Shown here: in pieces, positions 28,049 to 50,127 of the stretch
How the letters are laid out: every line of letters starts with the position of its first letter
How positions within the stretch are numbered: the stretch's first letter is position 1
Origin: Halorubrum sp. PV6
GTDB lineage: Archaea > Halobacteriota > Halobacteria > Halobacteriales > Haloferacaceae
Reading direction: 5' to 3'
NCBI RefSeq assembly: GCF_003990725.2
Contig: NZ_CP030064.1
Location: 2,356,001 to 2,420,000 of the forward strand
Length of the DNA: 64,000 bases
Made by a program: the position numbers and the translations under genes
The notes under the pieces: model-generated
Databases searched by the model: none
Told to the model about the DNA's origin: nothing
Seen by the model: the letters and a program-made list of their open reading frames with translations, nothing else

Positions 28049-28052
28049 CGAC

Positions 28053-28565: not shown

Positions 28566-28647
28566 AGCGTGACGTGGAGCGCGCGGCTGATGAATCCCCG
28601 CGACAAAGTAACCCTTAAGTCCCGACATCAGGTAGCAGAAGGCGAGC

Positions 28648-28722
28648 GGGTTGGTGGTCTAGCCAGGTTATGACGGCTCCTTCACACGGAGCAGGTCGGC
28701 GGTTCGAATCCGCCCCAACCCA
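28648..28722 (+). tRNA. tRNA-Val (anticodon CAC)
   Basis: A complete 75-base cloverleaf: acceptor stem GGGTTGG paired with CCAACCC and discriminator A, D arm with TAGCCAGGTTATGA, anticodon stem GCTCC/GGAGC around TTCACAC giving anticodon CAC, short variable loop, and T arm GGCGG-TTCGAAT-CCGCC. CCA is not encoded. A CTTAAGT box lies about 30 bases upstream. The 3' part from 28691 on serves as the integration target of the following element and is duplicated at 40130. Confidence 0.97.
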
Positions 28723-28726
28723 TACG
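28691..28726 (+). repeat. attL: tRNA-Val 3' end, 36-base direct repeat
   Basis: This 36-base stretch covers the variable loop, T arm, acceptor 3' strand and four bases past the tRNA. It is identical to 40130-40165; the bases just outside differ on both sides, so the repeat is exactly 36. It marks the left junction of the integrated element. Confidence 0.95.
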
Positions 28727-29129
28727 CGCTGCGCGCTTTTGTGAAGTAGCAAACCGCATGACGGGGAGGCTATACCCTTCCACCCCCTCAGCAATTCACT
28801 AAGTCACCGGCTACTTTTGTCCCAAATCGCCATACGTGGCGGGGTTCACCGAAAAGTAGTATATCCAATTACAAATAACCACCTGCTATCGATAAATAAA
28901 ATATAGGCCCTATTGAAGCTCTATTTGTCAGACACGGCCGAGGAGACGTATCCCGCACTTGATTCTAAAACATGAATTAAATATTAATATACTGAAATGT
29001 TAAAATTAAATTGAGGATTTTATGACAAGACAGAGGAGTTAACTATTCAAAGAGATACGTTCACTTCGTGAGCCGTATCAACTCCAGCCAGGAACGTACA
29101 ATACTATTCAAAAGGAATCGTGATCAATA
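28727..29129. other. Non-coding left end of the element
   Basis: No gene was found in this AT-rich stretch. The first 130 bases are mixed composition, then it becomes poor in G and C with several stop codons in every frame. The region near 29096-29110 (AATACTATTCAAAAGG) could hold the promoter of the glycosyltransferase. Confidence 0.5.
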
Positions 29130-30638: not shown

Positions 30639-30757
30639 ACCATAATAGTATTTATAAATAATAGATCCACAGTGGTTGGTCTCCCGAAGAGAGACTTCGG
30701 TCTGTACCCAGCCCGTAATCTATATTAAATATATTCCATATGTGATAGTTCTCTATA

Positions 30758-30823
30758 GTGTCACAACCAGAGTCGCCGGAGTTTAATCAGAGTGAGTTTC
30801 ACTCAATGGTATCCCTTCGTTAA
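30758..30823 (+). pseudogene. Out-of-frame 5' fragment of the helicase-like gene
   Basis: GTG at 30758 opens a 21-codon frame (MSQPESPEFNQSEFHSMVSLR) that ends at TAA 30821-30823. A TATA-like TTAAATATATT at 30725-30735 lies 26-28 bases upstream, which is what a leaderless start here would need. The main helicase frame is open from 30796 but lacks any ATG, GTG or TTG before its P-loop, and lies one base out of step with this fragment. I read the two as one gene with a single-base loss between about 30806 and 30821. Confidence 0.55.
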
Positions 30824-30930
30824 GTCTGTCTCCAAGTCTGACGATAGACAACGTTCGGGCTCGCCTCAATGAAACAATCCACCGAGCCTTCAGCCAGGAT
30901 GGAACCACCCTCGTTGAAGCTCTCCCTGCG

Positions 30931-32637
30931 ATGGGAAAGAGCTACGATGCTGTCGAGTGGGCTGAGAGTACGGGTAATCCACTAACAATCTTCACTTCTC
31001 GGCGAGAATTGTACGGACAGTACGAGAAGTGGTGTGAGGAACAAGGATTAGACTACCTCGTACTACCGGCGTTTCAACATGAGTGCGAAACCATCGGAGA
31101 GGATCATCCCATTGAGGCGAGAGTCAATGAGCTGTATGAGTCCGGCATTTCGGGAGCAGAAATTCACAGAGAAGCACAGCGGTACTTTGGGAGAGATCTC
31201 CCCTGCCAACTTGACGGCCCCTGTAGGTACATGGAGAAGCGGGAGTTCAATCCAGAAGAGTACGACGTACTGATCGGCCACTACCTCCAAGCTCACAATA
31301 GAGACTATCTCGAAGACCGCTATGTCGCGATTGACGAGTTCCCTGGTGACTCTTACTTCTTTGAGCCGACTCATAACGACGCAACAAGAGCGGTGAGTAA
31401 CTACCTGAAAAGTGAGGATGGTCTCCCATTCAAGAACTGGAAAGATCTCCATCGTCGGCATGATAACGAAGAACACGAGCAAGTTGTCTCCGAGTGGAAG
31501 GAGGACTTAGGATTCTATTCCCACCGGGATACACGAGTTGTCCTCCAGCAGAGTCCCAACTTCCACGCCCATGCTCCGCTTCTAACCCACGCCGCTATCG
31601 AGTTTGAACTCTTGGAGAACGAGTGGGAATCTGCCCAACTCGGCTCCGGTCGAGTAGCAGTCAGAAGTCCCGAAGACGAGTGGACTGTTCTAATTCCTCC
31701 ACCATTCTACGCCGCAGAGAGCGTCGTCGCTCTGGATGGAACTCCTACTATCTCGAAGTGGCGGATGGCCCTTGGAGAGAACTGGATAGAGCATGAAGAA
31801 GTCTTAGGTTCGGACGACAAGAAGCGTGAATACCTCCGAGACGTTCTCGGTCTCAAAATAAAGCAGACAAACGCTGGAGCGAAGCCGTATCAGAGTGGCT
31901 CTCACGTCAATGTCGATTCTGACGGCGCACTCTTGGAGAGCATCCACGAGAAAGAAGGATCACGTCCAGCTGTCATCACCTCAAAACAAGCGAAGGAACA
32001 GTACGAATCGACTGAGGTAGAACAACACATTGAGGTCGCGGAGCATTACGGGAACCTCAAAGGGAGTAATAAGTTCGCAGAAACTCGCCTTGGAGCGATC
32101 ATCGGAAGTCCACATCCTCCTGAGGGAGAAGCAGTCATTCGATGGGGAGCGATTGATGGTGTAGCAATTTCACGAAAAGAGGACGAGAACGGTCGCGTCA
32201 CGAAGGGTATGAACTTGGACTTCGGTAGATACGGGAACGCACTCTTCCGAGATGTTGTCGAGAAGGAAGTCCTCCAAGCGATCATGCGCTTTGGTCGGAC
32301 CCCGAGTGAAGACGAGCATGGAGCGACAGTGTATGCTCACACCTCCCGTCTTCCGTATTGGGTGGAAGCTGACGAACGCTTGGAGGTCAACACGTGGTCT
32401 AAAGGGATGGTCGAAGTTGTGAACGCGATCCGTAACTCGGAGAAGTGGCCCGATGGTGAGTGGAAGAACGACGAGATTGCCGCGGATACCTCAGTCGGAG
32501 ATCGACAGGTGGGCAAGCTGATGAAGGAATTGGACGAAGAGGGATACGTCACTCATCGTCGCGGCGGGCGCGGGAACGCGTATCATTGGTCGAATAAGCG
32601 GCTTGACGAGTTCTCGCGATACGGGCGCGTGGTGTAG
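30931..32637 (+). CDS. SF2 helicase-like ATPase with C-terminal winged helix
   Basis: The ATG-initiated frame gives 568 residues, but coding sequence clearly extends upstream: the in-frame codons before 30931 spell LVEALPA, completing a Walker A motif LPAMGKS that the ATG would cut. Further motifs are the Walker B-like VAIDEFPGD near residue 136, ALDGTPT near 270, the motif V-like IIGSPHPPEGEA near 392 and the motif VI-like QAIMRFGRTP near 451. Residues about 510-565 look like a winged helix (DEIAADTSVGDRQVGKLMKEL). It is probably the replication helicase or initiator of the element. As it stands the gene has no usable start in frame with the P-loop (see the 30758 fragment). Confidence 0.75.
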   Translation: MGKSYDAVEWAESTGNPLTIFTSRRELYGQYEKWCEEQGLDYLVLPAFQHECETIGEDHPIEARVNELYESGISGAEIHREAQRYFGRDLPCQLDGPCRYMEKREFNPEEYDVLIGHYLQAHNRDYLEDRYVAIDEFPGDSYFFEPTHNDATRAVSNYLKSEDGLPFKNWKDLHRRHDNEEHEQVVSEWKEDLGFYSHRDTRVVLQQSPNFHAHAPLLTHAAIEFELLENEWESAQLGSGRVAVRSPEDEWTVLIPPPFYAAESVVALDGTPTISKWRMALGENWIEHEEVLGSDDKKREYLRDVLGLKIKQTNAGAKPYQSGSHVNVDSDGALLESIHEKEGSRPAVITSKQAKEQYESTEVEQHIEVAEHYGNLKGSNKFAETRLGAIIGSPHPPEGEAVIRWGAIDGVAISRKEDENGRVTKGMNLDFGRYGNALFRDVVEKEVLQAIMRFGRTPSEDEHGATVYAHTSRLPYWVEADERLEVNTWSKGMVEVVNAIRNSEKWPDGEWKNDEIAADTSVGDRQVGKLMKELDEEGYVTHRRGGRGNAYHWSNKRLDEFSRYGRVV

Positions 32638-33146
32638 GGTTATCGAACTCTGACGTACCATATTTATACGTGAAACCTCAGAAATAGTCGTTCGCGGAGT
32701 AGTAACGCATGGAGTCGGCACTATTCTCTTCCGTGTCCGTCACCGATTTTGACTATAGGACATAACTACCATACTTACATAATATAAATAATTCTGATAT
32801 GTTGGCAGATACTCATCAGATCATCTTCGTTCGCAGTTGACAGTCATACACGCATGTTTCATCAATGTGAATTAGTAACATGCAATCTCTCGTAGGTCTG
32901 ATCCTTTGAGTCAGGGTACTGTTCGGAGCTTGATTGTACAGTTTATTGGGTAATAGTAATGGTAATAGTAATACAGCACAGCAGACCGCACACAACGCGC
33001 GCTACAGCACAGCAACGCAACAACAGCGCCCGCACACGTACGTACAACAACAGCACAGCAACAGATACAGCATAATAGTAACAGTCAACCCAAACCCTCC
33101 CCCTCAATGTGTTGTTACGTACGATTAATCCATACGCAAATACAAG
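32638..33146. other. Non-coding region with short repeats, candidate origin
   Basis: AT-rich non-coding DNA between the helicase and the Rep-side genes. At 32941-33100 it becomes a low-complexity CA-rich block: ACAGCACAGCA occurs at 32973, 33004 and 33050, and TAATAGTAA at 32951, 32963 and 33073. Such iterated short repeats beside replication genes are typical of plasmid origins. A 64-codon frame across the block (32934-33128) is Gln/Thr low-complexity and not believed. Confidence 0.45.
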
Positions 33147-33236
33147 ATGGGTGTTGACCTACAAGATCGAGACGCGATTGCTCGGATGTACGTGATGGAA
33201 GGCGAGGAAGTGCCATATAATTCAGCGCGCTTCTAA
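33147..33236 (+). pseudogene. Truncated relative of the 33687 regulator
   Basis: A 29-codon frame (MGVDLQDRDAIARMYVM then EGEEVPYNSARF) ends in TAA. Its ARMY...EEVPY core parallels LAMYNTDEVPYGAVIDEL of the intact small protein at 33687, but the N-terminal beta strand and C-terminal helix are missing. A GATTAATC box lies about 22 bases before the ATG, so it may still be transcribed. Likely a degenerate copy. Confidence 0.4.
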
Positions 33237-33686
33237 GGCCGCTGGCAGTATCGCAGTCAAATCTCTCCGGTGTCCGAATGGTTCTGTTCATTTCCGTACG
33301 AAAACGTCGTGTGAGTCTTCTGAGCGTTTCGCCTTGCGAGAGTAACAGGAATAATACTAATATTTCTTATGCTACTACATTCATACCATATATCTTATAC
33401 TACAGTTGGAACATTCGTCGATCTGTTGAGCGCGTCGATAGGTGACTCTCTCTCAGAGATTTTCGGTCTGAGGCCAAGAAATACGGGTCACAATAAGTCA
33501 AATTCTGTGGATACAGAGGTTCAGGAATGAGAGTGCATGGGAGATATTAAAAAACTTTATAGTATTAACAAATCATGAATGACACTGCGACTCAATCCCA
33601 TCGGACACCGGAGAGGGGTATATAAACCCTTTACCATTAATAGTAGTGTAGGGGGACAGAGACAAATCCCGCCTCCTATATCTATT
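33237..33686. other. Non-coding region
   Basis: AT-rich, with stops in all frames and no gene seen apart from an N-terminal open extension of the next frame. TATATAAA at 33617-33624 and TTAATAGT near 33637 are candidate promoter boxes for the small regulator. Confidence 0.4.
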
Positions 33687-33830
33687 ATGCGAGAAACAAC
33701 TATCAGCGTCAGCCATGCCGAAAAGGACGCACTCGACGATGCGCGACTTGCAATGTACAATACTGACGAAGTACCCTACGGAGCTGTAATTGACGAACTT
33801 GCTGGCCGGATAACTGGCGACAAGGAATAG
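33687..33830 (+). CDS. Small antitoxin/regulator-like protein
   Basis: A 47-residue protein (MRETTISVSHAEKDALDDAR, then MYNTDEVPYGAVIDEL). The short N-terminal strand followed by two helices is the layout of ribbon-helix-helix-type regulators, and haloarchaeal elements often carry such tiny proteins. The frame is open from an ATG at 33579, but the extra residues are not family-like, and start at 33687 is preferred. It precedes the Rep gene by 25 bases and may regulate it. Confidence 0.6.
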   Translation: MRETTISVSHAEKDALDDARLAMYNTDEVPYGAVIDELAGRITGDKE

Positions 33831-33855
33831 CGACAGCTGCTGAATTTCAGATCTT

Positions 33856-34179
33856 ATGTCGATTTCTAAATCTAACGAGCAGAATCCATATTGTATCGGT
33901 GAATCAGATAATGAGCAGTCCTGTTACTTTTGGACTCAAGACGACCGAGATTATTTCAAGGAACCTGGAGGTGAGATGTTGAATCTCTCACGACTGACAG
34001 CCTACGCAGAATATGGTGAGAAAGTCCACGAACTCGAAGTTCATCATGAAATTCCAGCCATCAAAGCAGACATACCCGAGTTCTTGGACCCGGTACCTCT
34101 TGGAGAACATAGACCGTCTCACTCTGGTCATCCGGTAGTCGAGGAAGACGGTATACCGCTACTTCGTGTTGACAGCTGA
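33856..34179 (+). CDS. Probable N-terminal part of a split Rep protein
   Basis: A 107-residue acidic frame starting MSISKSNEQNPYCIG, with FKEPGGEMLNLSRLTAYAEYG and VHHEIPAIKADIPEFLDPVP. It has no hydrophobic segment. Its last 14 bases overlap the next frame, which is shifted by one base. Deleting one T near 34175 would fuse them as ...LLRVDS-DGSRDDYGG..., so I think this is the N-terminus of the Rep gene. The alternative, a separate protein with an HH/HNH-like motif (EVHHEIP), cannot be excluded. Confidence 0.55.
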   Translation: MSISKSNEQNPYCIGESDNEQSCYFWTQDDRDYFKEPGGEMLNLSRLTAYAEYGEKVHELEVHHEIPAIKADIPEFLDPVPLGEHRPSHSGHPVVEEDGIPLLRVDS

Positions 34180-35077
34180 CGGTAGCCGAGACGACTATGG
34201 CGGACACCACGAAACCGAACCAGGCGATCCGTCAAACCCAAACCACGCGGCACGTCGAAGGTTACCACTCGCACCATCATCGGTCAAGGTAGAACGACTA
34301 CCAGACCCACTCACAGAGTTCGGAGAGCCACTATCCATTGAGGAAGCACGAGAGGCGTACCTACGTACTCAACGAGCCTCATGGAACTCTGATAATCGTA
34401 CATCGAAGTACGAGCGCCATCGGTATAGTCTCTATCCGAGAATCCTCGATGCCGACCGACATTTTCAGTCAGAGTTCGATGGGCTGACTACAGCGATGCT
34501 ATCCCGACGGCTTTCACCCATTGACGAGGCAGGGAACTGGCTCACTCCCTGGGAATGTAACGAAATGCTACATGGAGGGAGTATTCATCGCTCGGTTCGA
34601 GAAGCCGTAGACTACCAACTTGACAGGTTCTCATACGAATGGGTTGCCGTGACAGCGCCAACTCAAAGTGCTGGTACTCCGCATGAACACGTCTACTTCT
34701 GGATTGACGATCCTGACAACAAGGTGATGACAGAGTACTTCGAGACTGGGCTTGAGAGACACTTGGACCACTGTGTCAACGCCTACCAGAAACATCACCA
34801 GTATCGGACTGACGGATCAGGTGGAGCGATGACAGTTCAACATAGTCCGGAAGTTGTCAAAGAAGCGCCGGATAAGGTTCATGAGATTCTCGAAGAGAGT
34901 TCACCACGACCGAACACGCAAGGATCACAGTATCTCGCTTCTCAGCTTGCTCATCTTCCTGTGGGGGACGTCTACGATGGGGGTAAAGAGAATCCCCCAG
35001 AGGCTCTGATCGAAGGGGCGGCTCTCTCATGGGCAAGTCCACGGAACTGGTTCCGAGCGAGTCGGGGAGTACCGTAG
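34166..35077 (+). CDS. Rolling-circle-type replication protein (Rep), C-terminal part
   Basis: From a GTG at 34166 the frame encodes 303 residues. WVAVTAPTQSAGTPHEHVYFWIDDP near residue 155 has the PHxHxxxW pattern of motif II in HUH replication proteins of haloarchaeal plasmids and pleolipoviruses, and SQYLASQLAHLPVGDVYDG near 252 fits a motif III with the nicking Tyr. Such proteins nick the origin and start rolling-circle replication. The N-terminus seems to lie in the preceding frame (33856). The HEH spacing is not a textbook HUH, so the family call is by overall resemblance. Confidence 0.6.
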   Translation: MLTADGSRDDYGGHHETEPGDPSNPNHAARRRLPLAPSSVKVERLPDPLTEFGEPLSIEEAREAYLRTQRASWNSDNRTSKYERHRYSLYPRILDADRHFQSEFDGLTTAMLSRRLSPIDEAGNWLTPWECNEMLHGGSIHRSVREAVDYQLDRFSYEWVAVTAPTQSAGTPHEHVYFWIDDPDNKVMTEYFETGLERHLDHCVNAYQKHHQYRTDGSGGAMTVQHSPEVVKEAPDKVHEILEESSPRPNTQGSQYLASQLAHLPVGDVYDGGKENPPEALIEGAALSWASPRNWFRASRGVP

Positions 35078-35212
35078 TTGTAGAGTTTCCGTTGGGTAGG
35101 CCATAGTCATCTCCTAAAGATTGGTCCGATTAGTTACACTGAAAATCTTTGAGTTACATCATTTGATAATTATTCCACAAATTATAATCAATATGGGTTT
35201 TGTGTCATTCAT

Positions 35213-36025
35213 ATGGATACTCCCGAAACGATAGAAGAAATATATGACTCATGGAATCCAGATAATGGAGGATTTGAAAGTGCTTGTTCAAAATGTCCCG
35301 TTAGGGATGAACGGGGTTGCCGTTCGCCATTCTATGGTCTTGGGACTTTTGACGATCGTGGTGAAGTAGATGTAATGCTGATTGGAGAATCTCCTGGAAC
35401 AGCGAACCAGGAAGACGGTGCTAATCCATCAGTTTCCGAAATTCCAAAATTTCCAGAATTTTTCACGAAGAAGATATCGGATGGTTTCGGAGAAAATAGC
35501 CCACACTTACATCCATTTACTAATGAGCTACAAGAAAAAAACCATGTTTATTACACAAATTTGCTGAAGTGCAACAAGTTGGCTGTCCCCGATGATGGAG
35601 ATTCTTGGTTACCCGTTAGGATCTTGAACGAACAATCTGAGCCTACAGGTCGCCATTCTGATCTAAATGATCGTGCGAAGAGAATCTGTATGAATTACCT
35701 TATTACTGAGATAATCCGGTTGAATCCTGACGTGATTGTTCCGTTTGGAGGAAATAAGATGGTTAAAGAAGTATACGACCTTTTTGGAGTGTCAGTCCCC
35801 AATTTAAAAAAGGCGATTAATAATAGGAAGACATATTCGGTCAACCTTGCCTCCGATACCCACTCAAAGACATATTCAGGTACAGTTGTCCCATCTTATC
35901 ATTTTTCTGAGAACCATTTCAAAAGTAGAGTAACGAATATTTCTGGCGTCTCGGGCGACTCGGTGGATGAAGTGCGAGGCCAGTATTGGCCTATAATTAC
36001 CCAGATGATAGAACAAGAGCTGTAA
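35213..36025 (+). CDS. Uracil-DNA glycosylase-like protein
   Basis: A 270-residue protein of the UDG superfamily. The motifs are VMLIGESPGTANQEDG near 53 (family 4/5 GExPGxxED), YYTNLLKCN near 112, NPDVIVPFGG near 175 and the final VVPSYHFSENHF near 227 where the usual HPS is changed. Cysteines in ACSKCPVRDERGC near 23-34, plus one near 161, could hold an iron-sulfur cluster as in family 4. It probably excises damaged bases or recognises uracil DNA. A TTATAATC box lies about 28 bases before the ATG. AT-rich codons mark it as element DNA. Confidence 0.75.
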   Translation: MDTPETIEEIYDSWNPDNGGFESACSKCPVRDERGCRSPFYGLGTFDDRGEVDVMLIGESPGTANQEDGANPSVSEIPKFPEFFTKKISDGFGENSPHLHPFTNELQEKNHVYYTNLLKCNKLAVPDDGDSWLPVRILNEQSEPTGRHSDLNDRAKRICMNYLITEIIRLNPDVIVPFGGNKMVKEVYDLFGVSVPNLKKAINNRKTYSVNLASDTHSKTYSGTVVPSYHFSENHFKSRVTNISGVSGDSVDEVRGQYWPIITQMIEQEL

Positions 36026-36406
36026 TTTGCCAACGCGAAGTTCTTCGCCCAACGTTTGATGGACGAGAGCGAGAATAAGCTGAGTCCACAACCTGCTGAT
36101 CCTGTTCATTTGGAGTCTGTGAGCCGGGTGTGTTCCAGATTGGCTCGCCATAGTTCTATTACGGTGACAAGACCGATAAAACCGGTTACAGAGAGCCACG
36201 GAATCACCGCCAGATCATAGTTGACGTATTCAAACTACCATGGCTAAGCCGTTTTCCGTGGAATAGCTCATAGTCGTCTCCAAACTGATAAGAACCTGAA
36301 CTATTCTATACACTACCAATATTGCCCCTCCAAGATTAGCTGTTATCCAGCCAAATTGTAAGCTACCCGAATAGTTATACAGTTATCATGTGTTGTCTGT
36401 GAGCGG
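36026..36406. other. Intergenic region, possible decayed coding fragment
   Basis: Directly after the UDG-like stop, the same frame stays open for 65 codons (FANAKFFAQRLMDESENK... to a TAG at 36222-36224) with protein-like composition but no start codon and GC content above its neighbours. It could be a remnant of a lost gene. The rest is AT-rich. TTATACAG near 36376 is the promoter box of the TRAM gene. Confidence 0.35.
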
Positions 36407-36766
36407 ATGGCACCCCAGACACAGACGATAACTGTAGACCGCATGAGTAACAGCGGTAACGCCATCGCTCACCAGCAACATGCTGGTAAAACCGTCCTCG
36501 TTCCTGCTGGAGAGGTCGGTGTAGAATACGACGTGCGATTGGTCGATCAGGGGTCTCACTTCGAGGCGCGACTGGTTGACCGTACTGAGCAGACTCAACC
36601 CTCGCAACCAAGCATTAGTCCCGACACGAGTAACGTCGGCAAGGGACGCGGGTCAGACTCTCACTCTCATAAGATTCAGTCGTCACCAGCTGGTGGCCGA
36701 CTGCGTGGGACTCCTGGTGGGTCTGGGAAGGCGCAACGTCGACGTATGTCTCAACGGAAGAAGTAG
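36407..36766 (+). CDS. TRAM domain protein
   Basis: A 119-residue protein. Residues 5-60 (ITVDRMSNSGNAIAHQQHAGK then VLVPAGEVGVEYDVRLVD) match the TRAM fold, a beta-barrel RNA-binding domain common in archaea. The C-terminal 60 residues are Ser/Gly/basic (SQRKK end) and likely disordered nucleic-acid contacts. A TTATAC box lies about 29 bases upstream of the ATG. Host TRAM proteins act as RNA chaperones; an element copy might alter host RNA. Confidence 0.75.
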   Translation: MAPQTQTITVDRMSNSGNAIAHQQHAGKTVLVPAGEVGVEYDVRLVDQGSHFEARLVDRTEQTQPSQPSISPDTSNVGKGRGSDSHSHKIQSSPAGGRLRGTPGGSGKAQRRRMSQRKK

Positions 36767-36954
36767 AGACTGCGAGCGGAGCGATTATTTTTTAGTTCAT
36801 TTCTGACGCCGAGATACAGCTGAAACTACATCGCCTCAAAGGATTGATTCTCCGGAGAGGTTCCTCCCAAATCGGCTGTCCAAAGACAAAGACCGGTCTT
36901 TAATTCTTTATATCAATAATCTTATATATCTGTAGATACTATGATCAAACACGA

Positions 36955-37287
36955 ATGACAGACGAAAATGCCGGACGTCAGCAGGTCGAACAAGACGATA
37001 TTGATCTCACAGAGTGGGTCCTTGGATTCGAAATTCGAGTGGACGGGGACATGGTGGGAGCTATCGAAGGAGAACCAGGAACTATCGAGTATTTCACGGT
37101 CATTCCAAACCCCAAGTATGAGCATCTCAAGCAAGCCGCGCTCAACGAGTTCATCGAAGAAAGCCGGAATCACGGTGCTACCGAGATCGTTACGAGCGGT
37201 CTGATGGAGCCTTCGGTTATCCCAACGCTTGAAGCAGAAGGATTCGAAGAGCGAAGCGACGAGATTGGTTGGGTAAAAGAAATCTGA
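36955..37287 (+). CDS. Possible GNAT-fold small protein
   Basis: A 110-residue acidic protein. The second half (YFTVIPNPKYEHLKQAALNEF ... LMEPSVIPTLEAEGFEE) has the strand-helix pattern of the C-terminal half of GNAT acetyltransferases, including a closing LExxGFEE. The acetyl-CoA loop is not clear. TCTTATATATC near 36919-36929 lies about 30 bases before the ATG. Confidence 0.5.
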   Translation: MTDENAGRQQVEQDDIDLTEWVLGFEIRVDGDMVGAIEGEPGTIEYFTVIPNPKYEHLKQAALNEFIEESRNHGATEIVTSGLMEPSVIPTLEAEGFEERSDEIGWVKEI

Positions 37288-37305
37288 GGACGATTGACCC
37301 TCAGC

Positions 37306-37488
37306 TCATTCGAACAAGTCTACCGATTCTGGATCGACCACATGAGAGCCGGAATTAGCAGATACTGATACTTCTGAAGCGGGAGTGTATTCATCATCAT
37401 ACTGGCTCAGAACAGCTTCATTCTGGGCGATGATCCTCTCGACGGTACGGACCATTGAGTCGATCTGGGAGGTCGGTTGGCTGTCCAT
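37306..37488 (-). CDS. Small acidic protein, unknown
   Basis: A 60-residue frame (MDSQPTSQIDSMVRTVERII) with a helical first half and an acidic, Ser-rich end. It follows the HELVH membrane gene by 62 bases on the same strand and may be co-transcribed. No TATA box was found just upstream. Weak support beyond composition and length. Confidence 0.4.
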   Translation of the reverse strand: MDSQPTSQIDSMVRTVERIIAQNEAVLSQYDDEYTPASEVSVSANSGSHVVDPESVDLFE

Positions 37489-37550
37489 CTGCCAGGTCTT
37501 TCAGATGTGGCGGCCTCAATGCACCGAAACTCGATCCCACCCCTCAGCTG

Positions 37551-37937
37551 TTACTCGAAATCCCTCCGATTTACCGACTCACCCGCAGTGAAATCTTTCC
37601 ATGCCTCGGGGTTCTGGTAACCCATCATGTCAGTCATGCTAACTCCGATGCCTCCAGCACCGAAAGCAAAAATCGGGATTGAGTGTAAGTACGCTCCAAG
37701 GAGTGCGATACATGGGAATATGAGAACGCCTCCAGCAGTTGCCTTGACCTGTCGATTACTCATTTCGTGTGGTGTTCGAAAGTCCACCTGAGTCGGGATC
37801 CTAAACCAATATCGAGAGAAGAACGTACTTCCTCCGAATATACGCCCGAATAGAAAATGGACTAACTCATGAGCAAATAGACCAGCAGCAGACAGTCCAA
37901 GTATGACAGCCACGTCCTGAATAAGTCCGAGATTCAT
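37551..37937 (-). CDS. Small membrane protein with HELVH zinc motif
   Basis: A 128-residue protein with three or four hydrophobic segments. The first holds AHELVHFLFGR near residue 23, the HExxH motif of zinc metallopeptidases, and the last region has SMTDMMGYQNPEAWKDF near 100 with an Asp that could be the third ligand. The layout recalls a minimal M50-type intramembrane protease. A TATTAG box lies about 31 bases upstream. Protease activity is inference. Confidence 0.6.
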   Translation of the reverse strand: MNLGLIQDVAVILGLSAAGLFAHELVHFLFGRIFGGSTFFSRYWFRIPTQVDFRTPHEMSNRQVKATAGGVLIFPCIALLGAYLHSIPIFAFGAGGIGVSMTDMMGYQNPEAWKDFTAGESVNRRDFE

Positions 37938-38097
37938 TGGCCGCTTCGTACAACGGACTCTCTCGTCTAATACCTAAGGCTATTAGATATAGATCTGTTC
38001 TTTGAACAATACCTCAAGGTATTCTGGACAATGTTGGCTCAAATCATTCGAATCGGAACCTAAAATATACATATTATCAAGTAGAACTGTTTAGAAA

Positions 38098-38757
38098 GTG
38101 GATCGACAAATATTGCTCACGGCGATTATTGCAGTTGCAAGTGTTCTAAGCCTCATGATTTCGACGTTGGCTGGGATTCCAGAAATTGTCAGATATTACC
38201 CAAGTGCTATAACAGGTCTTTTAGAGATTATCCCTCTCGATCTGGTGTCTGTATGGGGTGAAAGGATTGGTTTGCTTTTGCTAGGTCTATCTCTCGGCTG
38301 GCTTGCTCATATTAGATACATATCAGACTCATCAAAATCTGTTGACAAGATAGAGGGATGTGTTAAATTGAGAGGTGTCCTGTGGAAGGGGACAGCAAAG
38401 ATAAATAATGGTCATTTTGTTGATATTAGTGTCCCTAATAAACCGTTGTGTTCTGAATGTCAGTCACCTATGAACAGCTCTGAAACAGGGAGTGGGTTCA
38501 ACCAAGATTTTTTCTGGAAATGTCCCAGTTCAGCTCATGAAAACATAGTAGAGCGAGATTTTGATCGAGAAGACGAAGCAGTAAATCTGTTCTCGAAACA
38601 TTTTGGTCGCATTGTTGAATCTGAAGATGAGGAATATTCACTTGATTCGCTAGTTGAGAGTATTAAAAATAGGGGTGGCAAAATCACCAGTAGAGCAATC
38701 TGGATCGAATACGTGGGAGTTGTAGACGATCCAGACATATCTGTAGATTGTTTTTAA
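38098..38757 (+). CDS. Membrane protein with cytoplasmic zinc-ribbon-like domain
   Basis: A 219-residue protein with two N-terminal membrane segments (LLTAIIAVASVLSLMIS and IGLLLLGLSLGWLAHI), then a soluble domain with PLCSECQSPM near 117 and a further FFWKCPSS near 138, a possible zinc ribbon, and a charged C-terminus. It starts with a GTG at 38098, about 28 bases after AATATACATATTAT, the expected spacing for a leaderless transcript. Not recognised as a known family. Confidence 0.6.
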   Translation: MDRQILLTAIIAVASVLSLMISTLAGIPEIVRYYPSAITGLLEIIPLDLVSVWGERIGLLLLGLSLGWLAHIRYISDSSKSVDKIEGCVKLRGVLWKGTAKINNGHFVDISVPNKPLCSECQSPMNSSETGSGFNQDFFWKCPSSAHENIVERDFDREDEAVNLFSKHFGRIVESEDEEYSLDSLVESIKNRGGKITSRAIWIEYVGVVDDPDISVDCF

Positions 38758-38818
38758 ACCCTAACAGTATACTATATTACGAAGTGTTGGCTACTGAGAA
38801 TTTCAACAGAATCAGTTC

Positions 38819-38977
38819 TCATATATTGTGCTGCCCTTCCTTTCGTTGCAGCTCCTCCTCAACACGTTCTAACACAGAGGATGCATAACTTCGACCCTCA
38901 GAGTCTCGGTCCTTTGAGTTGACTATCTTCTCCATTTCATGCTCAAGGAAGACAAGCTGGCGGAGAGTGAGATCCAC
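38819..38977 (-). CDS. Small charged protein downstream of the integrase
   Basis: Too short for usual gene callers: GTG at 38977 to TGA at 38819-38821, 52 residues (MDLTLRQLVFLEHEMEKIVN, then SYASSVLERVEEEL). It is helical and charged like small regulators. A perfect TTTATAAA at 38998-39005 lies 25-26 bases before the GTG, which strongly suggests a leaderless transcript starting exactly there. It follows the integrase by 40 bases on the same strand and might be an excision or copy-control factor. Confidence 0.5.
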   Translation of the reverse strand: MDLTLRQLVFLEHEMEKIVNSKDRDSEGRSYASSVLERVEEELQRKEGQHNI

Positions 38978-39017
38978 ATAAAGAATAGGGACCGTGAGTT
39001 TATAAAAGACGGTGAGG

Positions 39018-40031
39018 CTATTCCATATCGAACATCTCTCGCCGTAAGTCTCGCTTCTCTGATTCAGTCCGAGCGTCGTAGTGTTTGTCCAGCGTTGGTA
39101 TGCTGACGTTCATCCGGTCGCTGATCAGCTCCTTCCGGTGCCCTTCGTTAAGCCAATGGGTGATAGCTCCTCGCCGAATAGCGTGGGGCTTGTGAGAGCC
39201 GGGACATTGCGCGGCCTTGTTGTACTCCTGCACGGCGACACACTCTGACTTTTCTCGATCGTGGGGACACTCTCCGGTGTAGTGGCACGGACGGGTGAGT
39301 CGGCGGATGTGTGTCCGGAGATTAGACAACGCCATACGACCATACTTTGAGGCGAAGAGAGGGTTCCGACCGTAGTCGTCCTCCACCTCGATGTGATTCA
39401 TCCGTAGATAATCGTCGAGGATTTCGCACGTCCAATCGTGGAGATTTACTTCTCGTTCGGCAGGCTCCTTGTTTTTCTGTGGAGTACCTTCGTCGGGATC
39501 GTGAGACACCTCAATGTATTTCTCTTCGGGATAGTAGTCGTCAACGTCTAACGACCGAGCGTTTCCGAGACGCATACCAGTATCCCATAAGAGGGCAAAG
39601 AGGGCGTGCCGTCTCGTTGCATACTCAAAGTCGTCTAAGTATTCGAGAATCTGGTCAGCTATCTCCGGTTCAATCTTCTCGGAGCGAACCTTCTCGTCGG
39701 GGTCATTGAGGACCATGTTCTCCACGACCCACGACTCAATGAGTCCCATCGAATTGGACCACTTGAGGAAGCTTCGGAGTGAGCAGAGGTCGTTGTAGAG
39801 GGTCATTTCATTGACCTCGCCAACTTCTCGCCGCCGTTTCTTGAAGTCGGAGATGTGGAAGCCGTCTATCTCACAGATGTTGTCGAGGTCAATTCCCTCG
39901 CAGAAGTCGAGGAACAGTCCAAGGGATGAGGCGTTGTTGTAGTACGTAGAGTCAGCCCATTCGGGTTTCTTGTCGGTCAGGTAGCGTTCAATCGCACGTT
40001 CCGGCTTCATTTGTGTTCGAGATTCGGACAT
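39018..40031 (-). CDS. int: Tyrosine recombinase (integrase) of the element
   Basis: A 337-residue XerC/D-type integrase. The N-terminal SAM-like core-binding domain (about 10-105) is followed by the catalytic domain with TGMRLGNARS (Arg near 153), a Lys near 188, HAIRRG (His-x-x-Arg near 281-284), HWLNEGH (near 289) and the nucleophile in LDKHYDAR (Tyr near 316). All catalytic residues are present, so it looks active. An unusual cysteine cluster (CHYTGECPHDREKSEC ... CPGSHK, about 248-275) may bind zinc, a feature of many haloarchaeal integrases. It starts 99 bases from attR and should integrate the element at the tRNA-Val repeat. Confidence 0.92.
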   Translation of the reverse strand: MSESRTQMKPERAIERYLTDKKPEWADSTYYNNASSLGLFLDFCEGIDLDNICEIDGFHISDFKKRRREVGEVNEMTLYNDLCSLRSFLKWSNSMGLIESWVVENMVLNDPDEKVRSEKIEPEIADQILEYLDDFEYATRRHALFALLWDTGMRLGNARSLDVDDYYPEEKYIEVSHDPDEGTPQKNKEPAEREVNLHDWTCEILDDYLRMNHIEVEDDYGRNPLFASKYGRMALSNLRTHIRRLTRPCHYTGECPHDREKSECVAVQEYNKAAQCPGSHKPHAIRRGAITHWLNEGHRKELISDRMNVSIPTLDKHYDARTESEKRDLRREMFDME

Positions 40032-44435: not shown

Positions 44436-44768
44436 GTGGAACACCGTCGTCGCTCATCGCTCGGAGCGCCGACTGCATATAAGGGGCAGAGCGTTGACGC
44501 GTTTTCAGCCGGATTATCGACGCCTACGGTGAGTTTCAGACCGTTCAGCGACTGGGAGGCATCGTTTTAAACGGTTCGAAAAACGCTTAAAAGATTTATT
44601 CTGCTCGTTGAGCGGTTAAAATCGGAACGGGGGCTGAGCGCGACGGTGCCGGAGTGTGCCGGCTCCGACCGGGCGAACTTCGCCGTGAGTAAGTCATATT
44701 ACCGTCAGGCGGCTACCACGCGACATGACGAGGACTCGACGACGTGGCTCGCCCGGGGGCGCTCGACC
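44436..44768. promoter_or_regulatory. Divergent promoter region
   Basis: About 330 bases between the membrane-protein gene and the Lrp/RCK_C gene. Contains TTATATG on the reverse strand (44472-44480) and an AT-rich patch at 44564-44625 with TTTTAAACGG, CTTAAAAG and GGTTAAAATCGG, likely tandem promoter or regulator sites. CATATTACC near 44696 is nearest the regulator gene. No other gene seen. Confidence 0.4.
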
Positions 44769-45530
44769 GTGAGCCACCGACTCGACGAGATAGACCGACA
44801 GATCGTCCACGCGCTGATGTCGGACGCGAGGAACACCTCCGCGCCGATGATCGCGGAGGAGATGAACGTGTCCGCGGGGACGGTCCGCAACCGGATCGAG
44901 CGGTTAGAGGAGGCGGGCGTGATCCGCGGCTACACCGCAATCGTCGACTTCGAGCAGGCCGACGGGCGGCTCACGTCGGTCTTTATGTGCACCGTCCCGG
45001 CGGACGAGCGCGAGCGGCTGGCGCTCGCGGCCCGGTCGATTCCGGGCGTCATCAACGTGCGCGTGCTGATGGCGGGACGCCGCGACCTGCAGGTGGTCGC
45101 GGTCGGCGAGGAGACGAGCGACCTCCGCGAGATTGCGCGCGCGCTCTCGGGACTCGACATCCGCATCGAGGACGAGGAACTGCTCCAGTCCGAGCTACAC
45201 ACGCCGTACTCGCGGTTCCTCAGCGACGACAGCAGGAAGTCGGTCGTCACGGACACCGTCACCCTCGCGGACGGGAGCGCCGTGATCGAGGTGTGCGTCA
45301 CCGACGACGCGCCGATCGTGGGACAGTCGCCCGCGGCGGCCCGGTCCGAGGGCCTCCTCCCGAGCACGACCGTCGTGACGTCCATCGAGCGCGACGGCTC
45401 CATCATCCACCCGGTCGACGACACGGCCATCCAACCGAACGACGTGGTGACCGTGCTGCCGAAAGAGTCGTCCGACGAGGCCGTCCTCGACGCGTTCCTC
45501 GCGGACGACGCCGCGACGCTGTCGACGTAA
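44769..45530 (+). CDS. Lrp/AsnC regulator fused to an RCK_C (TrkA-C) domain
   Basis: A 253-residue protein with an AsnC-type winged helix (LDEIDRQIVHALMSDARNT then VSAGTVRNRIERLEEAG), a RAM-like domain (about 60-140) and a C-terminal RCK_C domain (about 155-240, with APIVGQSPAAARSEG and VDDTAIQPNDVVTVLP). RCK_C domains bind ions or nucleotides such as c-di-AMP in transport control, so this regulator probably reads an ionic or nucleotide signal and controls a transporter or the adjacent Usp gene. GTG at 44769 chosen as the frame upstream is not family-like. Confidence 0.88.
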   Translation: MSHRLDEIDRQIVHALMSDARNTSAPMIAEEMNVSAGTVRNRIERLEEAGVIRGYTAIVDFEQADGRLTSVFMCTVPADERERLALAARSIPGVINVRVLMAGRRDLQVVAVGEETSDLREIARALSGLDIRIEDEELLQSELHTPYSRFLSDDSRKSVVTDTVTLADGSAVIEVCVTDDAPIVGQSPAAARSEGLLPSTTVVTSIERDGSIIHPVDDTAIQPNDVVTVLPKESSDEAVLDAFLADDAATLST

Positions 45531-45594
45531 GATCGAAGCGGCGAGCCGGTCGGTCGATCGGCCGTTTATTGTTCCGGACGCCCAACGGTACGGT

Positions 45595-46302
45595 ATGGTA
45601 GACACGATCCTCGTTCCGATCGAACTTCCCGATCCCGAGCCGTTGTCGCCGGTTCTCGTGGACGACCTCTCGTCGCTTGAGGTGGTGCTCCTCGGTCACT
45701 ACGGGCTCCCGGAGCAGACGCCGGCGGCGTCCGCGCGCGACCAGTTCGGCGCGGACGCGCAGGCGACGCTCGACGAGGTGGCCGAGCGCTTCGCCGAGGC
45801 GGGCGCCGCCGTCCGGACGCGACTCGTGTTCGGCAAGGACCGGGCGGCCGCCATCCAGGAGGTGGCCGCCGAAGAGGACTGCGTGGCCGAACTCGACCCC
45901 GCCCCGACCGACGGCATCGAGCGGATCCTCGTCCCGCTTCCGGACGTCGCCGAGGTCGACCGCCTGCCGACGTTCATCCGGATCCTCTGTGAGGACTCGA
46001 CCGGACAGATCACCCTCTTCCACGTCGTCGAGGGCGAGGAGCGGCGCGAGCAGGGGGAAGCGGTGGTCACGGAGACGCGCGAACAGCTGATCGCGGACGG
46101 ATTCGACCCCGACGAGGTCGACACGCGGGTCGTGGAGGGCGAGGAACACGACGAGGAGATTCTCAGGGTCGCCGCCGAGTACGACGCCGTCGTGATGTAC
46201 GAGGCCGAGTCGCGGCTGGGCGACCGACTCTTCGGAACCCTCCCCGACCGGATCGCGAATCAGACCGGCGACCCGGTGATCGTCGTCAACCGAGACTACT
46301 GA
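45595..46302 (+). CDS. Universal stress protein family
   Basis: A 235-residue protein with two UspA-like halves; the first is reduced (VDTILVPIELPDPEPL), the second is more complete (IERILVPLPDVAEVDRLPTF ... GDRLFGTLPDRIANQTGDPVIVVN). The G-x2-G-x9-G ATP loop is not well kept, so nucleotide binding is doubtful. It follows the Lrp/RCK_C gene by 64 bases with its own TTTATTG box 27 bases from the ATG; both may belong to an osmotic or transport response. Confidence 0.82.
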   Translation: MVDTILVPIELPDPEPLSPVLVDDLSSLEVVLLGHYGLPEQTPAASARDQFGADAQATLDEVAERFAEAGAAVRTRLVFGKDRAAAIQEVAAEEDCVAELDPAPTDGIERILVPLPDVAEVDRLPTFIRILCEDSTGQITLFHVVEGEERREQGEAVVTETREQLIADGFDPDEVDTRVVEGEEHDEEILRVAAEYDAVVMYEAESRLGDRLFGTLPDRIANQTGDPVIVVNRDY

Positions 46303-46403
46303 CCGCGGACGGCCGAGACGCGGGCCGACACGCTCCGAACTGAATCGATGGTAGTGAACCGCAGGCGGGCTGAGTCTCGGGATACGCGGCCGCGCTCTCG
46401 CGG

Positions 46404-47426
46404 TTACTCGTCGTCGGTCTGCTTGTCGTCGGTCTGCTTGTCGTCGGTCTGCTTGTCGTCGACCGTCTCTTCGACCTTCTTGTCGACGGTCTCCTCTACC
46501 TTCTCGTCGACCTTCTCGTCTACCGTCTTCTCGACCGTCTCCTCGACTTTTTCGCCGACCGTCTCCTCGACCGTCTTCTCGACTGTTTCGCCGACTGTCT
46601 CCTCGACGGTCTCTTCTACTTTCTCGCCGACCGTCTCGTCTACCGTCTCCTCAACCGTCTTCTCGACCGTTTCGCCGACGGTCTCCTCGACTTTCTCGCC
46701 GACCGTCTCGTCTACCGTCTTCTCGACCGTTTCGCCGACTGTCTCTTCGACTTTCTCGCCGACTGTCTCTTCGACTTTCTCGCCGACCGTCTCTTCGACC
46801 GTCTTCTCGACTGTTTCGCCGACCGTCTTCTCGACCGTCTCGCCGACGGTCTCCTCTACCTTCTCACCGACGGTCTCCTCTACCTTCTCGCCGACGGTCT
46901 CCTCTACCTTCTCGCCGACGGTCTTCTCGACCGTCTCGCCCACGCTCTTTTCGACCTCCTTGCTCACCGTGTCGCCGACCGTCTTCTCCACCTCTTTGCT
47001 CACGGTCTCGCCCACGCTCTTCTCGACCTCTTTGCTCACCGTATCGCCGACCGTCTTCTCCACCTCCTTGCTCACGGTCTCGCCCACGCTCTTTTCGACC
47101 TCCTTGCTCACCGTGTCACCGACCGTCTTCTCGACTTCCTTGTTGACCGTCTCGCCCACGCTCTTCTCGACTTCCTTGTTGACCGTCTCGCCCACGCTCT
47201 TTTCCACCTCTTTGCCGACTTGATCGGCGACCTCGCGGGTCATCCAGTCGGGGTCGAACCGGGCCATCTTCCAGACGACGTGAACGACGTAAGAGGCGAA
47301 CACGCCGATCCCGAACGCCACGCCGATGTTGTTCGCGTTGAGCGTCGCGATGAGGACGATCGAGAGGATGATCAGCGCACCGTAGGCGATGTCGGTGATC
47401 GCGTCGACGCGGGCGGGGCTTACCAT
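46404..47426 (-). CDS. Membrane protein with 65-unit tetrad-repeat tail
   Basis: A 340-residue protein. Residues 10-55 form two membrane segments (GALIILSIVLIATL and GVAFGIGVFASYVVHVVW). Residues 66-325 are 65 consecutive four-residue units, every one starting with Val (VGET, VEKT, VSKE, VEET, VGEK and similar), with no break. The first part is built of 12-residue units (KEVEKSVGETVN type), the later part of 8-residue units (VGEKVEET type). It ends with three DDKQT repeats and DDE. The tail is helix-forming and very acidic. At DNA level units are multiples of 12 bases, so gain or loss keeps the frame. ATG 47426 precedes the membrane segments. Function unknown; a scaffold, tether or surface/cytoskeletal spacer is conceivable. 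Confidence 0.8.
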   Translation of the reverse strand: MVSPARVDAITDIAYGALIILSIVLIATLNANNIGVAFGIGVFASYVVHVVWKMARFDPDWMTREVADQVGKEVEKSVGETVNKEVEKSVGETVNKEVEKTVGDTVSKEVEKSVGETVSKEVEKTVGDTVSKEVEKSVGETVSKEVEKTVGDTVSKEVEKSVGETVEKTVGEKVEETVGEKVEETVGEKVEETVGETVEKTVGETVEKTVEETVGEKVEETVGEKVEETVGETVEKTVDETVGEKVEETVGETVEKTVEETVDETVGEKVEETVEETVGETVEKTVEETVGEKVEETVEKTVDEKVDEKVEETVDKKVEETVDDKQTDDKQTDDKQTDDE

Positions 47427-47663
47427 CGCCGATCCGCCTCCGCGAGCGCGACGCGTCCGTGACTCGCTCCGTCTCCGCGATCGTCTCGTCTGTTCCACGT
47501 GAAACTCATTCGTACCTTCCCTTTCCGCGCTGACGGGCTAAATCTCCCGCTTCGCGTCGCCGGCGCTTGTTCCCAATTGACGAGGCGGACGGCGCCGGTT
47601 CGGGGCGTCACGGTACGGCGCGCGGAGCGGGCCGCTTTTGTGGCGGATGACCGAACGCGAGGC

Positions 47664-48782
47664 ATGGACATCGAGGAGGGCGGTCTCACCGTTTCCGTTC
47701 CGGAGGCCCGCGACGGCGCCAGCGAGGGCACCGGCGGCGGCGTCTTTTTTAACCCCACCCAAGAGCTGAACCGCGACATCACCGTCGCGGTGCTGCGCGC
47801 GTACCGCGACCGCGAGCCGCGAGCGGCCTCGTATCTCGACGCGATGGCGGCCTCCGGCGTCCGGGGCGTCCGCGCCGCCGCCGAGGGGTACGACGTGACG
47901 TGCGCGGACGTGGACCCGGACGCGGTCGAACTGGCCGCCGAGAACCTCGCCGCGAACGACCTCGACGGCGACACCGTCCACCGCGACGTCAACGCGCTGT
48001 TGTACGAGAACGTCTTCGACGTCGTCGACCTGGACCCGTACGGGACGCCGATCCCCTTCGCCGACGCCGCGCTGGCGAACGCGCGCAACCTCGTCTGCGT
48101 CACGGCGACCGACACCGCCCCCCTCTGTGGCGCCCACTTACAGAGCGGCATCCGCAAGTACGGCGCGGTCCCGCGGAACACCGATTACCACCCCGAGATG
48201 GGGCTTCGGACGCTGATCTCCGCGCTGGTCCGGACCGCCGCGCGCTACGACAAGGCGGCGCGACCGATCGTGTCGCACGTCTCGCGACACTACGCGCGGA
48301 CCTACCTCGAACTGGACTCCGGCGCGCAGGCGGCCGACGCCTGCATCGACGAACTCGGCTACGTCGACCACTGCGAGGACTGCCTCTGGCGCGAGGCGAC
48401 CCGCGGGCTGATCGCGGACCCCGTCGAGCGCTGTCCCGTCTGTGACGGCGACCGCGTGCTCACCGCCGGACCGCTCTGGCTCGGCCCCGTCGCAGACCCC
48501 GACTTCACCCGCGCCGTCCGCGGACACGTCACCGACGACATGGGGGAGGCGAAGCGCGCCCGGAAGCTGCTCGGAACCGTCGCCCGCGAACTCGACACGC
48601 CCACCCACTACGACCAGCACCGACTGTACAAGGCGTGGGGCGAGGCGGCCATCGGGATGGACGAGTTCGTCGAGCGCCTCCGGGGCGCGGGCCACGAGGC
48701 GAGCCGCGCGCACTACCGCGGGACCGCGGTCAAAAGCGGCGCGTCGATCCCAGAGATGCGCGCGGCGGTCCTCGACGACTGA
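47664..48782 (+). CDS. trm1: tRNA (guanine26-N2)-dimethyltransferase
   Basis: Trm1 dimethylates G26 of tRNAs with S-adenosylmethionine. The 372 residues carry the SAM loop [20 protein letters not shown] near 55, the catalytic-region [19 protein letters not shown] near 118 and a zinc site CEDCLWRE ... RCPVCDGD near 235-262. Length matches archaeal Trm1. ATG 47664 is family-consistent; the frame is open 55 codons upstream but Arg-rich. Confidence 0.95.
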
Positions 48783-48855
48783 GCCGCGCGAGCGACCCGC
48801 GTCACCCGCCCCCCTTTTGTCGCCGTCGCTCGAACCCGCGGCCGTGTCCCGTCGC

Positions 48856-50127
48856 ATGACCACCGCCGCCGGAACCGCTCGCCGCGTCGTCGACACCGCG
48901 CTCGACCGCCGCGTGACGTTTCTCGCGGCCGCCATCGCCTACTACGCGTTCGTCTCGCTCATCCCCGCGCTGCTCCTGCTCGTCGTCGTCGCCAGCGTGG
49001 CGTTCGGAGAGTCGATAGCCGCGGAGTTGGTCGCCGCGACCGGCGACTTCCTGACGCCGGCCGGCGAGGAGGCCGTCGCCGCGGCCGTCTCCAGCGCCGG
49101 CGGGCGGACCGGCGCGAGCCTGCTCGGGGTGGCGGTGCTGCTCTGGTCGACGCTCAAGGTGTTCCGCGGGCTCGACACGGCGTTCGTCGAGCTGTACGGC
49201 GTCGAAGAGGCGCCGGGGTTCGTCAAGCAGGTCACGAACGCCGCCTCCGTCGTCCTCGGCGTCGGTCTCGGTATCGGGGTGATGGTCGCCGTCGGCGCGT
49301 TCGTCGCGGCCGCCGACGCGGTCCCGCTGGTGGAGGCCGCGAGCGTGTTCGCGCTGCCGGTCGTCCTCGCCGTCGTCTTCTTCCCGATGTACTACCTCGT
49401 GCCGCAGTTGACCATCGGCGTCCGCGAGGCGGTTCCCGGAGCCGTCTTCGCGGCCGTCGGGTGGACGCTGTTACAGGCCGGCTTCCAAGTGTACGCCGCG
49501 GGCGCCGGGCAGTACCAGGTGTACGGAGTGATCGGCGGCGTCCTCCTCCTCGTCACGTGGCTGTACCTCGCGGCCGTCGTCGTCGTGGTCGGCGGCGTGG
49601 TCAACGTCGTGCTGTCGGGACGGGGCGGTGGCGCCGTCGCCCGCGACCACGACGCGGACCGGCAGTTACAACACGACCGCGGCCGACCCACGGGTATGAA
49701 CGGTGAGTCGGACGGCGCGGCCGACGCCGGCGACGAGGAGCGCCCGGCGGGGGCGCCGGACGTGGCGGCGCTACAGGAGGAAGTGAGGCGGCTGCGGACA
49801 GAGTTCGACGCGTTCGAGGACGACGTCGAAGAACGCACCGTCGACAAGCCGGCCGTCGAGTCGGAACTCAAGCGATACGTTCGCTCGCGGATGCGCCGCG
49901 GTCACGCTCGGGGGTGGGGGCCGTACCTCGTCCTCTTGTACGGGACGGTGCTGATTCTCGGGGCCTTCTCGTTTCTCGACGGGCTCTACGCCATCGCCGC
50001 GATGCTCATCCTCGGGCTCTCGACGCTCGGGCTGTACACGCTCTTCATCCTCGTCGGCGTCGGCCTCAACCTGCTCGAAACGCCCGGCAAAGCGCTCGAC
50101 TACGCCCGCGACCGTGGCGACGACTGA
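48856..50127 (+). CDS. YihY/BrkB membrane protein fused to a haloarchaeal C-terminal domain
   Basis: A 423-residue protein. Residues ~1-265 are a YihY/BrkB (formerly RNase BN) family domain with six hydrophobic segments, FLAAAIAYYAFVSLIPALLLL and the typical LYGVEEAPGF and VGWTLLQAGFQVYA. A Gly/Asp linker leads at residue ~281 to MNGESDGAADAG, a charged coiled-coil-like stretch (VAALQEEVRRLRTEFDAFEDD) and two more membrane segments. The internal Met suggests the second part may exist elsewhere as its own gene. A GTG at 48844 is an alternative start. Function of YihY is not established. Confidence 0.8.
   Translation: MTTAAGTARRVVDTALDRRVTFLAAAIAYYAFVSLIPALLLLVVVASVAFGESIAAELVAATGDFLTPAGEEAVAAAVSSAGGRTGASLLGVAVLLWSTLKVFRGLDTAFVELYGVEEAPGFVKQVTNAASVVLGVGLGIGVMVAVGAFVAAADAVPLVEAASVFALPVVLAVVFFPMYYLVPQLTIGVREAVPGAVFAAVGWTLLQAGFQVYAAGAGQYQVYGVIGGVLLLVTWLYLAAVVVVVGGVVNVVLSGRGGGAVARDHDADRQLQHDRGRPTGMNGESDGAADAGDEERPAGAPDVAALQEEVRRLRTEFDAFEDDVEERTVDKPAVESELKRYVRSRMRRGHARGWGPYLVLLYGTVLILGAFSFLDGLYAIAAMLILGLSTLGLYTLFILVGVGLNLLETPGKALDYARDRGDD

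Follow-up and report, generated by a model that had tools for sequence, protein, structure and literature searches.

A haloarchaeal membrane protein family with valine-tetrad tails that co-occurs with one subtype of PHO4 (PiT) phosphate transporter

Introduction

What does a membrane-anchored protein do that carries a valine at every fourth position over 260 residues, and can such a tail form a regular helical assembly? The gene that raises this question lies in a stretch of 64,000 nucleotides from Halorubrum sp. PV6 (contig NZ_CP030064.1, positions 2,356,001 to 2,420,000), here called the window. Estimates for coiled coils span 3.33 to about 3.9 residues in each helical turn, with YadA, at 3.8, as the extreme among known cases; a value of 4.0 has been stated to lie outside the accessible range (Hartmann et al., 2016; PMC4786415). 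Phosphate uptake in haloarchaea relies mainly on PHO4-type rather than ABC-type transporters (PMC4230888). Searches of the open-licence literature turned up nothing pertinent on tetrad coiled coils, and no described accessory protein for haloarchaeal PHO4/PiT transporters.

In our best reading, the gene codes for a haloarchaeal membrane protein, so far undescribed, that is associated with PiT transporters and extends a helical rod into the cytoplasm; we infer its molecular role. What began as a curious repeat can now be put to the test as an unnamed haloarchaeal family with ties to a single phosphate-transporter subtype.

The tail gene and its product

The following features were assigned (window coordinates):
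46404..47426, minus strand: complete gene for a protein of 340 aa with a two-helix membrane anchor and a Val-tetrad tail (translation; start at the conserved start of relatives; single copy in its own genome)
47238..47426, minus strand: hairpin in the membrane plus the conserved junction WKMARFDPDWMT, aa 1-63 (residues invariant among 22 diverse members; hydropathy peaks; AlphaFold2 helices)
46452..47231, minus strand: 65 unbroken Val-x-x-x tetrads, aa 66-325 (translation and residue count)
46407..46460, minus strand: acidic C-terminus with three DDKQT units and DDE, aa 323-340 (translation; 15-base tandem repeat at 46410-46461)
47664..48782, plus strand: trm1, tRNA N2,N2-dimethylguanosine methyltransferase (PF02005, E=7.6e-86), divergent from the tail gene

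The start codon is the ATG at 47426, which agrees with the conserved start in relatives, and the protein ends in DDKQTDDKQTDDKQTDDE. An open reading frame on the plus strand (46348-47223, STVSSTFSPTV...) arises as a shadow of the tail; only the minus strand frame contains the conserved anchor. The tail gene is genuine, since its anchor is conserved across genomes and its valine codons vary mostly synonymously. Rfam returned no match within window positions 45000-49000.

Translation confirmed the unbroken tetrad run claimed in the initial annotation. Valine stands at residues 66, 70 and so on to 322 with zero exceptions, and none of the 65 valines between residues 66 and 325 is off register. 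Shuffling the same 260 residues 20,000 times produced tetrad runs no longer than 10 (mean 3.7). In composition, the tail has 28% E, 25% V, 15% T and 14% K, and its net charge is -48. Within the tetrads, position Val+2 is always E, K or D, while Val+1 is mostly E or G and Val+3 mostly T.

A conserved anchor across haloarchaea

The initial annotation knew of no described family with such a layout and had proposed a search with the membrane part alone. This search found a single relative in 125 of the 170 genomes of the same family (Haloferacaceae) and none in the other 45. Among 393 genomes drawn from the phylum, the anchor matched 59, all of the same order and some of them own-family genomes again. 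Genera with relatives include Halorubrum, Natrinema, Natrialba, Natronococcus, Halosimplex, Halobaculum, Halobellus and Halogranum. The junction is invariant or almost invariant over 22 diverse members, as are several Gly and Asp residues. The protein is therefore no orphan and belongs to a family spread across haloarchaea. That this family is undescribed did hold: the anchor alone gave no significant match in Pfam or NCBIfam, and RefSeq labels two plasmid-borne relatives 'hypothetical protein'. Matches of anchors to VirB3 and MgtE (E at or above 0.0035) were inconsistent and were rejected. On both haloarchaeal plasmids that we read, a gene for a helix-turn-helix protein lies upstream of the tail gene (L209, 2200-2889; L210, 2943-3596) and possibly encodes a local regulator.

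Variation of the tail and constraint on the valines

Between relatives, the tail varies from 29 to 405 aa (129 distinct complete tails); a comparison of tail lengths between strains had been suggested at the outset. In these tails 4177 of about 4520 hydrophobic-to-hydrophobic spacings (92%) are exactly 4 and 254 are 3. Over all tails, Val dominates the core, with 4814 Val compared with 395 Ile, Leu or Met. The 65 tetrads of the window copy form the longest unbroken run (median 22), and at least 40 consecutive tetrads occur in 15 of the 129 tails. The perfect run is a feature of the window species: 33 of 38 Halorubrum tails lose register one or more times, frequently within a module around KEVSEVADDVSDTVSEEV, which the window copy does not have.

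Three-residue steps in some relatives create hendecad-like 4-4-3 stretches, and in several relatives the tetrads pass directly into heptad segments. A heptad segment that ends in RVDRRPREDEVEE is present in many relatives; it mostly lies at the C-terminus or close to it, and in some cases close to the anchor. The shortest forms consist of hardly more than the anchor, a few tetrads and this heptad cap. The cap, xxVQAxVEAVDERVDRRPREDEVEELI, is conserved in Natrialbaceae and some Haloferacaceae (loci L120-L160, C-terminal part). A short motif, such as RRDDS or YRRGDS, recurs at the C-terminus of many Halorubrum members (loci L002-L030 and L071-L079), where the window copy has its DDKQT repeats instead. 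At locus L038 the tail is cut to 29 aa, and the match to the PHO4 subtype described below is also poor in that genome; at L082 the gene ends in a frameshift-like stretch (LSKIPSKGPSTTPSKTLL). Judging from these two loci, repeat expansion probably breaks the tail gene at times.

At the DNA level, Tandem Repeats Finder detected a 15-base unit repeated 3.5 times in the DDKQT part (46410-46461) and periods of 24, 36 and 72 bases in the tetrad part. The latter are all multiples of 12, which, together with tail lengths that differ widely between species, bears out the earlier description of the repeats as in-frame units that allow the length to change. Because these periods match at just 69-87%, most repeat copies in the window gene are old and decayed, and there is no fresh slippage tract. 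The window tail uses all four valine codons (43 GTC, 13 GTG, 8 GTA, 1 GTT); over all 65 the first two bases are invariant and the third is variable (1.3 bits). Between close relatives, valine codons show 178 synonymous and 19 replacement differences and the other tail codons 658 and 388, a comparison that is inflated by the aligner, which favours Val-Val pairing. Because of this difference, we think that the valine pattern is probably kept by selection rather than merely copied.

These data bear on the strongest alternative to a defined assembly. The tail might be a length-variable polyelectrolyte rod or spacer, either a single helix or partly disordered, in which the valine spacing is a by-product of repeat expansion in multiples of 12 bases and is kept as harmless. 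Such a rod would agree with the extreme length variation, the biased composition, the DNA periods, the Gly found in 22 of the 65 window tetrads and the absence of confident supersecondary structure in AlphaFold2 models. It is harder to reconcile with valine codons that are far more constrained than their neighbours, with the invariant first two bases, and with a valine register that is maintained in the tails of many genera despite differing repeat units. We consider it possible, though rather unlikely.

Predicted structure of anchor and tail

Hydropathy peaks and AlphaFold2 helices at residues 4-28 and 31-56 (pLDDT about 66-78 per ten-residue block) support the two membrane helices that had been placed ahead of the tail. 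A helix prediction had likewise been suggested, and AlphaFold2 indeed returned helix throughout, with a mean pLDDT of 65 without alignment and 56 with 31 relatives. The model with homologues scores best in the hairpin and has low confidence along the tail (pLDDT about 46-61 per block). A test of the sequence itself, independent of the models, pointed the same way: against shuffled tails with preserved tetrad columns, pairs of opposite charge were in excess at i+1, i+3 and i+4 and too few at i+2, i+5 and i+7, with z-scores that are inflated by repeat copying. This spacing and the low-confidence models favour a helical tail over a strand. By the positive-inside rule (R6; K53, R56), both ends of the protein, and hence the tail, would be cytoplasmic.

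On a helix with about 3.6 residues per turn, a step of four residues is calculated to rotate the valine stripe by about 37-40 degrees per tetrad, and the stripe makes a full turn per 9-10 tetrads. The core periodicity of the window tail is exactly 4.0 over 65 steps. It thus falls outside the published coiled-coil range of about 3.33-3.9; the initial annotation had already set a period of four apart from heptads (3.5) and hendecads (3.67). Given the published limit near 3.9, a perfect tetrad rod is therefore either no regular coiled coil or a new type of one. Non-heptad coiled coils (hendecads 11/3, pentadecads 15/4, 19/5 of YadA, and alpha/beta forms; PMC4786415) are alike in their long repeats, which carry a hydrophobic residue once in each helical turn at spacings of 3 and 4, and several relatives of the window protein share with them hendecad-like 4-4-3 stretches and a heptad cap. 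They differ from the window tail in its period of exactly 4.0 over up to 65 steps and its Val core in place of mixed residues. Relatives with three-residue steps and heptad caps fall locally inside the coiled-coil range.

We doubt a reading in which the tails assemble as a right-handed coiled coil of regular geometry, with about 4.0 residues in each turn, or in which local unwinding mimics such a coil. The long unbroken tetrads of many members, the dominance of valine in the core, the helix-like charge spacing and the 4-4-3 stretches of relatives would all be compatible with it, yet the literature sets the limit near 3.9, has no case beyond YadA and puts 4.0 outside (PMC4786415). A search of solved structures with the window protein gave a best E of 0.007, which reflects composition only. 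The tetrads are long and regular enough for a direct test of helix assembly at 4.0 residues per turn.

Co-occurrence with a PHO4 transporter subtype

A link that the window by itself does not reveal emerged from the loci of relatives. Outside Halorubrum, the tail gene commonly adjoins a gene for a PHO4-family (PiT) transporter, which is either divergent from it or follows immediately downstream on the same strand. In many of the same-strand pairs in the loci examined, the gap is about 30-100 bp or the alignments overlap; on a Halobaculum plasmid, RefSeq lists a 'hypothetical protein', a gap of about 50 bases and an 'inorganic phosphate transporter'. We ran a profile of the linked PHO4 type ('TGPAFGPAVG') over the same genomes as the anchor. 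The subtype threshold of E 1e-160 was set after the scores had been seen, and bits per aligned position show a gap there (about 1.43 versus 1.52). Of the own-family genomes with a completeness of 90% or more, 112 carry both genes, 1 the tail gene only, 4 the transporter subtype only and 34 neither (Fisher p=3e-28). Concordance was 146 of 151. In 20,000 permutations within genera, which handle phylogenetic non-independence in part, this value was never attained (maximum 144, mean 130.5). Presence and absence switch jointly in 8 of 9 mixed genera. A gas-vesicle protein, used as a patchy control, showed no within-genus association with the tail gene. Because PHO4 as a whole is present in all 170 own-family genomes, the association concerns the subtype.

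In the order's remaining families, the subtype is present in 35 of the 36 genomes with a tail gene, and the two genes are adjacent in 26 (13 divergent, 13 with the transporter gene downstream on the same strand). In Halorubrum the tail gene is not beside the transporter, and adjacency was lost in several other lineages too; in the window's own genome 0.8 Mb separate the tail gene from the subtype, which is located at C1:1577324-1578487. Conserved linkage combined with co-occurrence, as expected of a PiT (PHO4) accessory gene, was found for the family, in Halorubrum by co-occurrence only (46 genomes with both, 1 with the tail gene only, 1 with the transporter only). The subtype occurs without a tail gene in four complete own-family genomes and at least two outside the family; therefore, the transporter can work without the tail protein. 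In genomes without an anchor match, the loci that we read contained no diverged tail gene beside the transporter. The asymmetry, a tail gene rarely without the transporter and a transporter sometimes without the tail gene, would fit an accessory role. A special cytoplasmic loop of the subtype was considered as a docking site and rejected as unspecific, because it occurs in other PHO4 types too.

Alternatively, the gene could be tied to the genes next to it in Halorubrum, trm1 or the one for a universal stress protein (Usp), in tRNA modification or stress, with the PHO4 link as ancestral baggage. The tail gene is divergent from trm1, its constant upstream neighbour, in nearly every Halorubrum locus, and Usp genes lie near it in other lineages also. 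Constancy of trm1 is confined to Halorubrum, though; it was not found beside the tail gene elsewhere, and co-occurrence with the PHO4 subtype persists in Halorubrum despite the lost adjacency. We do not think that trm1 is part of the system, and trm1 and Usp were rejected as functional partners because the trm1 neighbourhood is not conserved beyond Halorubrum. This reading is improbable.

Comparison with known families

PhoU-like Pit accessory proteins (DUF47) accompany bacterial pit genes. The tail gene resembles them as a small gene that lies beside and co-occurs with a PiT/PHO4 transporter, and its product would, like theirs, be a helical and probably cytoplasmic regulatory part. In contrast to them, the window protein is hairpin-anchored in the membrane and built of tetrads, and Pfam and NCBIfam gave no PhoU/DUF47 profile match. 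The membrane or endonuclease stalks of DUF1640 and DUF3782, which are beta-layer proteins (PMC4786415), offer a second comparison. DUF1640 is likewise a membrane-anchored prokaryotic protein with a long helical stalk, but the window protein lacks the [aliphatic]-A-T-K-[polar]-[DE] motif and a DUF1640 profile match.

The whole window protein scored above the cut-off for DUF445 (PF04286; 37.6 bits versus 33.8, E=3e-9, best stretch residues 77-273). This match is confined to the low-complexity tail, several unrelated families match the same stretch, and the anchor has no match. We attribute DUF445, CdrL_M, EcsC, Gp5_trimer_C and the other profile matches to tail composition. A beta-solenoid or triple beta-helix of the gp5/VgrG kind in place of a helix, as the beta-forming Val and Thr and the weak Gp5_trimer_C match (E=9.8e-5, below cut-off) might suggest, is very improbable given the depletion of opposite-charge pairs at i+2 and their enrichment at i+3 and i+4, the absence of any strand from the AlphaFold2 models, the merging of tetrads into heptads in relatives, and the many unrelated families that the same profile scan also hits, as biased composition does.

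A possible accessory role at the transporter

We give about an even chance to the tail gene encoding an accessory membrane protein of the haloarchaeal PHO4/PiT phosphate transporter with a helical, bundling cytoplasmic tail. That it is a functional partner of the PHO4 subtype, taken alone, seems somewhat better than even, and any specific mechanism less so. The data support the two-helix anchor, selection on the valines, the helical tendency and the linkage and co-occurrence with one subtype; the helical state and the cytoplasmic position of the tail are supported indirectly. In the proposed mechanism, the hairpin would sit in the membrane alongside the PHO4 transporter, and the acidic, mostly helical tail would project into the cytoplasm. 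The valine stripe would give the tail an adhesive line that rotates slowly, so that neighbouring copies might associate laterally into bundles. Such bundles could gather transporters into clusters, serve them as a scaffold, or keep a regulatory end, which in many relatives would be the conserved heptad cap, at variable distance. Co-occurrence is not contact, and contact with the transporter, bundling and an effect on transport are conjectural steps.

A bolder version is a new helical fibre, in which membrane-anchored Val-tetrad helices assemble at a period of 4.0 as a dedicated phosphate-transporter scaffold or regulator throughout haloarchaea. We regard this as a long shot; if true, a helical fibre of 4.0 residues would lie beyond the known coiled-coil range.

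Genomic surroundings

The Usp-family protein (45595-46302) adjoins an AsnC/Lrp-type winged-helix regulator (44646-45530) that has a weak C-terminal TrkA_C-like domain, scoring just below cut-off. Farther away, window positions 28000-40000 have about 47-52% G+C, compared with about 64-77% for the chromosome. This stretch carries a family 2 glycosyltransferase (29130-30638), a putative Rep protein (DUF1424, 34166-35077), a uracil-DNA-glycosylase-like protein (35213-36025) and a phage-type integrase (39018-40031, minus strand), and looks like an integrated mobile element.
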